A stretch of 33,863 nucleotides of DNA from an uncultured Bacteroidales bacterium (GTDB lineage: Bacteria; Bacteroidota; Bacteroidia; Bacteroidales; P3), in NCBI GenBank assembly GCA_947179195.1, contig CAMXAS010000003.1, positions 1-33,863 of the forward strand, given 5' to 3'. Positions 1 through 4,610 of this stretch are shown piece by piece. The first letter of the stretch is position 1; every line of letters begins with the position of its first letter. The notes under the pieces were generated by a model, which saw only the letters and a list, made by a program, of their open reading frames with translations, was not told where the DNA came from and did no database searches. A program made the translations under genes and the position numbers.

Positions 1-1
1 C

Positions 2-1681
2 ATGCTGCGCGAAGTTTTGCGGACGCGCAAGCAGACACTGCCCGACCCCAAGGTGTTGGGCAGCGCGGGCAGTTTTTTCGCGAATCCGGTGGTGCCGGCC
101 CTGCATTACGAGCGTTTGAAGGCCGAATACGCCGGTTTGCCGGGGCATCCCGTGGCGCAGGGTGTCAAGATTCCGGCCGCCTGGCTCATCGAACAATGCG
201 GTTGGAAAGGCTATCGGGACGGCGATGCGGGTGTCTATGAAGGCCAGCCGCTCGTCTTAGTCAATCACGGCATGGCCACCGGCGCCGAGATATGGGCGTT
301 GGCCGGCCGCATAGGCGACAGCGTGGAAAAGAAGTTCGGCATCCGCTTGCAGGCGGAAGTCTGTCTTTACGGGACGGAAGAAGATAAACGGCAGTTGCAT
401 TATCAGGCCGTGTTGGACAGGATGTTCCACAGCCTGCCGATGTTCCAGCGCATCGGGGCGGCGGCCTACAAGGCCGACCTATCCAATACGGAGAAGATGA
501 TGGAGGCTTTGAACCATCCGTACCGGCGGTTCAAGTCCGTCCATGTGGCGGGGACGAACGGCAAGGGCTCCTGCTCGCATCTGCTGGCCGCCGTCTTTCA
601 GGCGGCGGGCTACAAGACCGGGCTTTACACCTCGCCGCACCTGAAGGATTTCAGGGAGCGTATCCGCATCAACGGCGAGATGATTCCCCAAGAGCGCGTC
701 ATCGCGTTCTATGAGGCCAACGCGCCCTTGTTCGAACGCATCAAGGCCTCGTTCTTCGAAATGACGGTGGCGATGGCGTTCGATTATTTCGCACGGGAGC
801 ACGTGGAAATCGCGGTGATAGAAGTTGGCATGGGCGGCCGGCTCGATTCGACGAACGTCATCACGCCCGAACTGTCGGTCATCACGAACATCAGCCCGGA
901 CCATATGCAGTTCCTGGGCGATACGTTGGCGAAAATCGCTGAAGAGAAAGCCGGCATCATCAAACCGGAGGTACCGGTCGTCATCGGTGAGACACAGGCG
1001 CAGACGTCGCCGGTGTTCCAGAAGAAGGCGGCCGCGTGCGGCAGTCCGATTGTGTTCGCCGACACCGTGTTTACCGCGCGTCTGAAAGAAGATACGCCCG
1101 AGGGGCTGCACGTGGATGTGGCCAAGCACGGCAGTCCGTATATGGCGGATTTGGTTTGCGCGTTGCGCGGATCGTCCTACCAGTTGAAGAACATCGCGAC
1201 GGTGCTGGCCGCGGTGGAGCGGTTGAAGGAGAAATACACGCTCGGCGAGACGGATATCAGGAACGGCTTCCGGCAGGTTATGGAAACGACGGGCTTGCGC
1301 GGCCGCTGGCAGCAGATCGGCCAAAAGCCGGATGTGTTCGTCGATACGGGACATAACGAAGGCGGCGTGGCCTTGGTCATGGAAATGATAGCCAAACGGC
1401 GGTTCAAACATCTGCGCATCGTTTGGGGCATGGTGCGGGACAAGGATATCTCTCACGTCATGGCCCTGTTGCCGAAGGAGGCGACCTATTATTTCTGCGC
1501 CGCGGACATCGAGCGCGCGTTGCCGGCCAAGGATATGGCGGCGCAGGGGGCGGCCTTCTCGTTGCAGGGCAAAGCCTACGCCTCGGTATGGGCGGCCTTG
1601 CGGGCGGCTAAGGCGGAGGCGGAACCGGACGATTTGATTTATGTGGGCGGCAGTACGTTTGTGGTGGCGGAAGTGTTGTAA
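2..1681 (+). CDS. 5'-truncated MurB (UDP-N-acetylenolpyruvoylglucosamine reductase, C-terminal part) fused in frame to FolC (dihydrofolate/folylpolyglutamate synthase)
   Basis: N-terminal ~125 aa carry MurB C-terminal hallmarks (KVLGSAGSFFANPVV, VKIPAAWLIEQCGWKGYRDGDAGVY, LVNHGMATGAEIWALAGRI, FGIRLQAEV). From ~401 nt the sequence is FolC/Mur-ligase-like (LPMFQRIGAAAYKADLSNT, VHVAGTNGKGSCSH, GLYTSPHLKDFRERIRING, EVGMGGRLDSTNVI, SVITNISPDHMQFLG). No stop between the domains. The MurB start lies upstream of the window. Confidence 0.88.
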   Translation: MLREVLRTRKQTLPDPKVLGSAGSFFANPVVPALHYERLKAEYAGLPGHPVAQGVKIPAAWLIEQCGWKGYRDGDAGVYEGQPLVLVNHGMATGAEIWALAGRIGDSVEKKFGIRLQAEVCLYGTEEDKRQLHYQAVLDRMFHSLPMFQRIGAAAYKADLSNTEKMMEALNHPYRRFKSVHVAGTNGKGSCSHLLAAVFQAAGYKTGLYTSPHLKDFRERIRINGEMIPQERVIAFYEANAPLFERIKASFFEMTVAMAFDYFAREHVEIAVIEVGMGGRLDSTNVITPELSVITNISPDHMQFLGDTLAKIAEEKAGIIKPEVPVVIGETQAQTSPVFQKKAAACGSPIVFADTVFTARLKEDTPEGLHVDVAKHGSPYMADLVCALRGSSYQLKNIATVLAAVERLKEKYTLGETDIRNGFRQVMETTGLRGRWQQIGQKPDVFVDTGHNEGGVALVMEMIAKRRFKHLRIVWGMVRDKDISHVMALLPKEATYYFCAADIERALPAKDMAAQGAAFSLQGKAYASVWAALRAAKAEAEPDDLIYVGGSTFVVAEVL

Positions 1682-1705
1682 AAAGCATATAAAGGAAAGC
1701 GGACG

Positions 1706-3322
1706 ATGTTGAAGAAAATGCCGGATACCATCGTATTGGTATTCTACATGGTGCTGACGGCGGCGGCGCTGACATGGGTGGTGCCGAGCGGCGAGTATGT
1801 GCGCGAATGGACGGAAGTGGACGGCCAGATGAAAGAGGTGGTCGTGGACGATTCGTTCCATTATGTGGAGCGTGCGCCGCAACTGTTCAGCGTGTTCTTC
1901 GCGCTGATGAAAGGCTTTGTCGATAAGGCCGACATCATCGTCTTCGTCTTGATTGTGGGCGGCGCGTTTTGGATACTCAACGGTACGGGGGCCATCGACC
2001 GGGGTGTCAAAGCGTTTGTGCGGCGGTTGCGGCGCAGGGAGCGCAAGGGCGGCTGGTGGACGGTGGACGATACGGTGCTGACGCTGATTATGGTCGTATT
2101 CAGCTTGTTCGGCGCGGTGTTCGGCATGAGCGAGGAGACGCTGGCGTTTATCCTGATTTTTGTGCCGATGGCGATTTCGATGGGCTATGACTCGATTGTG
2201 GGCGTAAGTATCAGTTATTTGGCCGCCCATGTCGGGTTTGCGGGCGCGATGCTGAATCCGTTTACGGTGGGCGTGGCGCAGGGCTTGGCCGGTCTGCCGC
2301 TGTTTTCGGGCGTGGAGTACCGGTTCCTGTGCTGGCTCGTGTTGACGGCGGCGGCCGTGGCCGTCGTCTTGGCCTATGCCCGCAAGTTGCGGAAAGACCC
2401 GACGGTTTCGCCCATGTACCGATTGGATGACTTTTGGCGGCGCGGCGCGGAAGCGGCCGTGTCGGAAGGGCTGGCGGACACGGCCGCCGCGGGCGTATTG
2501 ACATCGGCCGTGCGTCGCCGGTATATTGTATATATTGTGCTGGCGGTGACGCAGGTCGTCATGGCCTGTCTGTATCCGATGGCGGCCTTCGATTTGTTCG
2601 GACGGACGTTCCAGTTGCCGGTGCTACCGTGTATCGCGGGGCTGTTCGTGCTGTGCGGCGGCTATGCGGCGCACCGTTCTTCGGCGGCCTTTTCGATGGG
2701 GCTGTTGCTGTTCACGATTCTCTATTTGGTGGTGGGCGTGCTGTGTTACGCCTGGTATATGACCGAAATCGCCGGCCTGTTCTTCGCGATGGGCTTGGCC
2801 GCCGGCTTGGCGTCGGGTTTGGGCATGAATCCGCTCATGCGGCGGTTCATGGAAGGCGTCAAGGATATGTTGGAACCGGCCATGATTATCGGCCTGGCCA
2901 GCGGCATCATCTTCATCCTGCGGGAAGGCAAGATTATCGATACGTTGCTCTACAGCGTCTCTTACGCGATGTCCGAAGCCGGCGAGGTGGCGTCCTTGGC
3001 AGGGATGTATCTGTTCCAGACGCTGTTGAACGTCGTCATGCCGTCCGGTTCGGCCAAGGCCGCGCTGACGATGCCGATTATGGCGCCCCTGTCCGACTTG
3101 TTGCATATCTCGCGGCAGACCACGGTGCTGGCGTTCCAGTTCGGCGACGGTTTCACGAACATGATTACCCCGACCTCGGGCATCCTTATGGGCGTGTTGG
3201 GCGCGGCCCGCATCCCTTATACGGTTTGGCTGAAGTGGGTCTATAAATTCATCCTGTTTTGCATCGGGCTGGGCTTTTTATTGCTCCTGCCCACATTATA
3301 TTTTACGTTTAATGGATTTTAA
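1706..3322 (+). CDS. YfcC-family (DcuC/ArcD-like) membrane transporter
   Basis: 538-aa polytopic protein: MPDTIVLVFYMVLTAAALTWVVPSGEY, IVFVLIVGGAFWILNGTGAIDRGV, FGMSEETLAFILIFVPMAISMGYDS, NVVMPSGSAKAALTMPIMAPLSDLL, typical of the YfcC family. Confidence 0.85.
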   Translation: MLKKMPDTIVLVFYMVLTAAALTWVVPSGEYVREWTEVDGQMKEVVVDDSFHYVERAPQLFSVFFALMKGFVDKADIIVFVLIVGGAFWILNGTGAIDRGVKAFVRRLRRRERKGGWWTVDDTVLTLIMVVFSLFGAVFGMSEETLAFILIFVPMAISMGYDSIVGVSISYLAAHVGFAGAMLNPFTVGVAQGLAGLPLFSGVEYRFLCWLVLTAAAVAVVLAYARKLRKDPTVSPMYRLDDFWRRGAEAAVSEGLADTAAAGVLTSAVRRRYIVYIVLAVTQVVMACLYPMAAFDLFGRTFQLPVLPCIAGLFVLCGGYAAHRSSAAFSMGLLLFTILYLVVGVLCYAWYMTEIAGLFFAMGLAAGLASGLGMNPLMRRFMEGVKDMLEPAMIIGLASGIIFILREGKIIDTLLYSVSYAMSEAGEVASLAGMYLFQTLLNVVMPSGSAKAALTMPIMAPLSDLLHISRQTTVLAFQFGDGFTNMITPTSGILMGVLGAARIPYTVWLKWVYKFILFCIGLGFLLLLPTLYFTFNGF

Positions 3323-3332
3323 TACACGAGAC

Positions 3333-4610
3333 ATGGAAGTCTATAAATTCGGCGGCGCCTCGGTCAAGGGGGCGGAAGCCGTCCGCCATGTGGCGCAGAT
3401 TTTAGCTAAGGAACAAGGCCCGAAAGTATTGGTGTTTTCGGCCATGGGTAAGACGACGAATGCGTTGGAGGCCCTGTTGAACGCGTTTTTCCGTCAGGAA
3501 CCCGACCGGGCGGAGGCGTTCAAGAAACTGATGACCGACCATATCGCCATCTTTCAGGCGTTGTTTACGCCGGATACCGAACGTTACGCACTGGTGCAAG
3601 GCCTGTTGCGGGAACGTTTCGAACAGTTGTACCAGCGTTTGCTGGAAGCGGCGGTGTTGCCTTACGACCAAGCCTACGACCAGATTGTGTCCTATGGAGA
3701 GCGTCTTTCCACGCTGCTGATTGTGAATTATCTGCAGGAGAACGGCTTGCCGGTCGAGATGATTGACGCGGCCGATTTGATTCGGACCGACAGCCGCTTC
3801 CGCGAGGCCAACGTGCAATGGGAAACGACGGTGAAGCAGATACGGGCGGCCGTGTTGCCGCTGTTGGAACAAGGCAAATGGGTGTTGACGCAGGGCTTTA
3901 TCGGCGGCGACGGACAGGGGCATACGACGACCTTGGGCCGGGAAGGCTCCGACTATTCGGCCGCGATACTGGCGCACAGCATCGACGCGCGGCAGATGAC
4001 GATTTGGAAAGACGTGCCGGGCGTACTCAACGCCGACCCCAAGTATTTCTCCAATACGTGCAAGCTGGCGCATATCTCGTACAGCGATGCCACCGAATTG
4101 GCCTATTTCGGCGCCAGCGTCATCCACCCGAAGACCATCAAGCCGTTGCAGAACAAGCATATCCCGCTCTACGTGCGTTCGTTCATCCAACCCGATGAAC
4201 CCGGTACGTGGGTCGGTTTGGATGATGTGGAGAATACGGTCGTGCCGTCCTATATCTTCAAGCCGAATCAGATTCTGCTGTCGGTATATCCCAAGGATTT
4301 CTCGTTCATAGAGGAAATAGGGCTGGCGCGGATCTTCGATTTGTTGGCGCGGTACGGCATGAAGGTCAATCTGATGCAGAACTCCGCGCTGAGTTTCTCC
4401 CTGTGTCTGGATGGGGCCAAAGGCCGTTTCCCCGATTTGTTGGGCGCCCTGTCGGCGGAATTCGACTGCGTCTATAACGAAGGCATGGATTTGGTGACGA
4501 TCCGTCATTATACGCCGGCGGTCGTCGAACAGATCGTGGCCGGTCGCGCCGTATTGCTCGAACAGCGGACGCGGCATACCGTCCAGTTGGTCGTGGCGCG
4601 CAAGGCTTAG
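3333..4610 (+). CDS. lysC: aspartate kinase
   Basis: MEVYKFGGASVKGAEAVRHVAQIL, SYGERLSTLLIVNYL, TTTLGREGSDYSAAILAHSI, IWKDVPGVLNADPK, ELAYFGASVIHPKTI. ATG at 3333 preferred over the upstream in-frame ATG at 3312, which overlaps the transporter. Confidence 0.93.
   Translation: MEVYKFGGASVKGAEAVRHVAQILAKEQGPKVLVFSAMGKTTNALEALLNAFFRQEPDRAEAFKKLMTDHIAIFQALFTPDTERYALVQGLLRERFEQLYQRLLEAAVLPYDQAYDQIVSYGERLSTLLIVNYLQENGLPVEMIDAADLIRTDSRFREANVQWETTVKQIRAAVLPLLEQGKWVLTQGFIGGDGQGHTTTLGREGSDYSAAILAHSIDARQMTIWKDVPGVLNADPKYFSNTCKLAHISYSDATELAYFGASVIHPKTIKPLQNKHIPLYVRSFIQPDEPGTWVGLDDVENTVVPSYIFKPNQILLSVYPKDFSFIEEIGLARIFDLLARYGMKVNLMQNSALSFSLCLDGAKGRFPDLLGALSAEFDCVYNEGMDLVTIRHYTPAVVEQIVAGRAVLLEQRTRHTVQLVVARKA

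Follow-up and report, generated by a model that had tools for sequence, protein, structure and literature searches.

The window, the whole stretch of 33,863 nucleotides analysed here from an uncultured Bacteroidales bacterium, opens with a gene that seems to encode both MurB and FolC. This raises the question of whether the two enzymes are made as one polypeptide and what such a joint would mean. Positions 2-1678 form a single open frame of 559 amino acids with no internal stop, closed by TAA at 1679-1681. Within this frame the C-terminal half of MurB is followed by a short linker and then by a full FolC. The features of the locus and the evidence for each are as follows.

2..364, + strand: MurB C-terminal half, substrate-binding domain (Pfam MurB_C, NCBIfam PRK00046, contig overlap)
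365..394, + strand: linker LYGTEEDKRQ, residues 122-131 (ends of free MurB, linker alignment and codons)
395..397, + strand: TTG codon, Leu132, a sense codon at the site of the free FolC start Met (comparison with free FolC)
395..1678, + strand: FolC (dihydrofolate synthase / folylpolyglutamate synthase), complete domain (TIGR01499; phmmer to solved structures)
1706..3322, + strand: YfcC-like putative basic amino acid antiporter, the next gene downstream (NCBIfam PRK11588; synteny)
3312..4610, + strand: aspartate kinase, the second downstream gene (TIGR00657, 276 bits against a cut-off of 208.7; synteny)

The original prediction, that a MurB C-terminal domain runs without a stop into a complete FolC, was borne out by this single frame together with the Pfam and NCBIfam matches. 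The TTG at 395 and the ATG at 422, to which it had pointed as possible FolC starts, are both present.

Pfam MurB_C matched residues 3-121 of the window protein at 87.7 bits (cut-off 27), and the protein covered positions 214-339 of the 343 in the PRK00046 profile. This half (2..364) contains the serine motif GSAGSFF and, in 'AEV', the terminal glutamate. Only the C-terminal part of MurB lies in the window; the full-length profile test was done on a relative, L039, whose complete fusion passed the cut-offs of both PRK00046 (316.6 bits; cut-off 277) and TIGR00179 (201.7 bits; cut-off 144.5). Residues Y162, S236 and E331 (L038 numbering) were invariant in 7 of 7 aligned fusions. By analogy with E. 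coli MurB, we take these to be the tyrosine of the YRxSxFK loop, the catalytic serine of GSxGSFF and the terminal catalytic glutamate, respectively; structure 1uxy is that of a Ser229Ala MurB. The MurB part is predicted to be a type-I-like MurB (UDP-N-acetylenolpyruvoylglucosamine reductase / UDP-N-acetylmuramate dehydrogenase) with FAD/NADPH reductase activity.

Base 1 of the window is also base 1 of contig C3, and this contig edge cuts murB. Extending the gene upstream recovered the absent N-terminal half at L032 3959-4683, the 3' end of contig C112 (4,684 bp) in the same 220-contig assembly, where it follows a gene for an ABC ATPase, apparently uvrA. Over its final 91 bases (L032 4594-4683), C112 differs from window 1-91 by 8 mismatches in the first 38 bp and is then identical over 53 bp. 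This near-overlap indicates that the C112/C3 edge is probably an assembly break on strain variation.

The FolC part was equally clear. TIGR01499 matched residues 160-559 of the window protein at 354.5 bits against a cut-off of 162.65, which the full-length relative L039 also exceeded (332.9 bits). Pfam placed Mur_ligase_M at residues 182-324 and Mur_ligase_C at 434-551, and phmmer matched this part to the solved FolC structures 1o5z, 1fgs and 1w78. The P-loop GTNGKGS, the EKAGI lysine and the DTGHN motif were invariant in 7 of 7 aligned fusions. An assignment to the MurC-F ligases was rejected, as the murC-F models scored far under their cut-offs and the genome holds a full separate set of Mur ligases. 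None of its six other Mur-ligase-fold genes is FolC: four are MurD, MurE, MurF and MurF-Alr by profile, and the remaining two, as read by eye, are MurC and Mpl. The single MurB_C match in the genome is likewise the fused gene. FolP and FolK are encoded, so FolC would be needed for de novo folate synthesis and dihydrofolate synthase activity of the fused FolC is expected.

Is the fusion confined to this assembly? Among 190 genomes searched from the same family, the junction recurred as the same single frame in every strongly matching genome of genera g1 and g11 (15 in all), with lengths of about 736-946 amino acids from stop to stop. The labels g1, g9 and g11 are arbitrary and stand for lineages known from metagenome assemblies; g1 and g11 genomes without a strong match, such as G002 (g1, 61% completeness) and G182 (g11, 84%), lie outside the 15. 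Close relatives with two ORFs, an arrangement that had been expected if the fusion were spurious, were not seen in g1 or g11, where every strong match was a single frame. The genes are separate outside these two genera, and FolC stands alone in the ten other genera of the family. No fusion outside g1 and g11 was found among the matches listed from 393 genomes of the order, nor any among the strong joint matches (E<=1e-148) from 396 genomes of the phylum, ranked samples that a very divergent fusion could escape.

Nine public records, mostly labelled 'uncultured Bacteroidales bacterium', carry the fusion when their frames are read one by one. One label stands out: L043 (JAMPAI010000003.1) is titled Ruminococcus flavefaciens and holds a Bacteroidales fusion at 62% identity, and the title is probably wrong.

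An assembly chimera or frameshift artefact has a negligible probability. The window does start at the edge of a contig in a 220-contig assembly, with strain heterogeneity at that edge, but several assemblies made independently carry the same junction in the interior of long contigs (for example 466 kb and 346 kb). It also recurs in relatives whose proteins share 55-93% identity with that of the window, and selection is purifying on either side of it. NG86 dN/dS came to about 0.08-0.16 in MurB and 0.09-0.15 in FolC, and was low across the junction also. By this measure of sequence divergence, both domains are under purifying selection. Both activities are probably required and retained, as suggested by the single copies, the passing of both cut-offs, the invariant motifs and the low dN/dS.

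In a FolC tree of 34 proteins all fused FolCs formed one clade (support 99/97), sister to genus g9, in which both genes are free (support 100/99). The fused proteins of g1 and g11 are about 55-62% identical. As judged from the tree and this distribution, the fusion is of single origin, old and conserved in two sister genera. The order uvrA - murB/folC - antiporter is common to g1 and g11, with the antiporter gene adjoining the fusion in both (PRK11588, 379 bits, under its 500-bit equivalog cut-off) and aspartate kinase often next. In the unfused genera that were read, murB and folC lie at separate places with different neighbours.

That a murB stop codon was lost only recently, one of the two readings first considered, can be rejected: the fusion is older than the split of g1 and g11, and the nearest unfused genera that were examined carry murB and folC at unlinked sites. 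Because the genes are unlinked there, a rearrangement is needed besides stop loss. An apparent intermediate, with murB and folC adjacent but unfused in the order-level matches G229 and G402, was discarded, as the upstream extension across a stop was spurious and the MurB query had no match there. In the common ancestor of g1 and g11, a rearrangement would have put folC behind murB, and murB itself behind uvrA. The murB stop codon would then have been lost and the FolC start codon would have become a sense codon.

Free MurB proteins of sister genera end 2-4 residues past the terminal Glu. Of 76 free FolCs, 60 have their nearest upstream Met 8 residues before the reference column, the same position as Leu132 of the window. 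Both enzymes are thus complete, joined by about 9-15 residues, with the ancestral FolC start now read as a sense codon. The linker is 6 residues longer in L045 and L046, which form one g11 subclade, and the indel that sets the subclades apart consists of whole codons.

The frame could be continuous and some or all FolC still be made separately, through internal initiation at TTG 395 or ATG 422 or through proteolysis of the linker, and the fusion would then matter less. Position 395 is the ancestral FolC start and reads TTG, TTG and ATG in g1 (ATG in L039), but in g11 an ATG occurs in only one of the seven rows (L042), the other six having AGC, CAA, CGG, CAG, GAG and GAG. With no start codon there in 6 of 7 rows, the old start is no longer maintained in most of g11. 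The ATG at 422 is kept in 10 of 10 fused sequences read; Met or Leu is, however, usual at the equivalent position in free FolC too, so its conservation needs no start function, and starting there would cost the first nine FolC residues. We therefore regard separate production of FolC as unlikely.

The product is most likely a single bifunctional protein of 85 kDa whose active sites are independent, as judged from the sequences. The suggestion that the gene encodes a bifunctional protein is supported by its presence as a single copy, its retention across 15 genomes, the intact motifs of both domains and purifying selection. In an AlphaFold model of L038 the two domains, taken one at a time, match solved structures of FolC and MurB; built from only seven sequences (pLDDT 71.9, pTM 0.46), the model does not fix the arrangement of the domains.

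To our knowledge, the MurB and FolC reactions have no intermediate in common. Pfam found no extra regulatory domain in the fusion, and the linker alignment showed no conserved sequence. Substrate channelling is unlikely on these three grounds, which also count against a regulatory or physiological role of the tether. Such a role, in which UDP-MurNAc supply would be coupled to folate or glutamate status or FolC recruited to a Mur enzyme complex, strikes us as quite unlikely, although most bacteria cannot do without either enzyme and the fusion persists across two genera. Mur fusions of non-consecutive steps are also known elsewhere, and have been considered as hints of Mur complexes (PMC6420597). 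A functional coupling maintained by selection, whereby MurB and FolC would affect each other's activity and link cell-wall precursor synthesis to folate status, seems more doubtful still. If true, no earlier covalent connection of these two essential pathways is known to us. The description of the protein as joining peptidoglycan and one-carbon metabolism held as anatomy; a link in function is hypothetical.

The explanation that we hold with high confidence is that of a gene of one origin encoding a single MurB–FolC chain of ~770 residues, two independent enzymes without channelling. The product would be made as one chain and fold as two independent enzymes, each serving its own pathway with no passage of substrate between them. 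The main effects of the tether would be 1:1 synthesis and co-localisation. We favour a fusion that is tolerated or mildly useful, giving two independent enzymes in equal amounts.

The open-access literature yielded no description of a MurB–FolC fusion, and profile searches of the window protein and of a full-length relative found no NCBIfam family for one. Fusions of Mur enzymes are already known, and what is unusual here is the cross-pathway partner. Like them, MurB–FolC is a single frame, conserved within a lineage, that holds two cytoplasmic enzymes, each of them complete; unlike them, it does not draw both partners from peptidoglycan precursor synthesis. A close parallel is the MurB/C gene of Verrucomicrobium spinosum, which complements E. 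coli murB and murC mutants (PMC4803751). It too joins MurB to an enzyme of the Mur ligase superfamily in one chain of about 770 residues, but the ligase comes first and MurB last, the linker has about 100 residues and the partner, MurC, is the next enzyme of the same pathway (PMC4803751). Bordetella MurE-MurF (PRK11929) similarly links two normally separate cytoplasmic enzymes tail to head in one active chain, but these are consecutive peptidoglycan enzymes and the operon positions of murE and murF are highly conserved (PMC6420597). MurG/MurC and MurC/Ddl fusions have been noted as well (PMC6420597).

Another cell-wall fusion, MurF-Alr (NCBIfam PRK11930), occurs in the same genome (L121, 852.7 bits against 804), but both of its partners serve D-Ala and peptidoglycan supply. 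Besides this fusion, on contig C30, the genome has a second, stand-alone MurF over the murF cut-off (L119, contig C4). Compared over the matched domain, stand-alone Bacteroidales FolC proteins are about 43-60% identical to the fusion and stand-alone MurB proteins 36-57%, but in those unfused genera that were examined the two genes stand apart, without linkage.

It is uncommon for enzymes of two unrelated essential pathways to be fused, and MurB–FolC, conserved in two genera, offers a clean natural test case of whether such a fusion across pathways has a use or is neutral. The inference that fused genes imply functional linkage could falsely tie folate synthesis to that of peptidoglycan, and automated gene calling may divide the protein or give it a wrong name. 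Long open frames also run on the minus strand at window 479-2230 and 3402-4577, opposite folC and the aspartate kinase gene, and are likely a by-product of base composition and codon usage.
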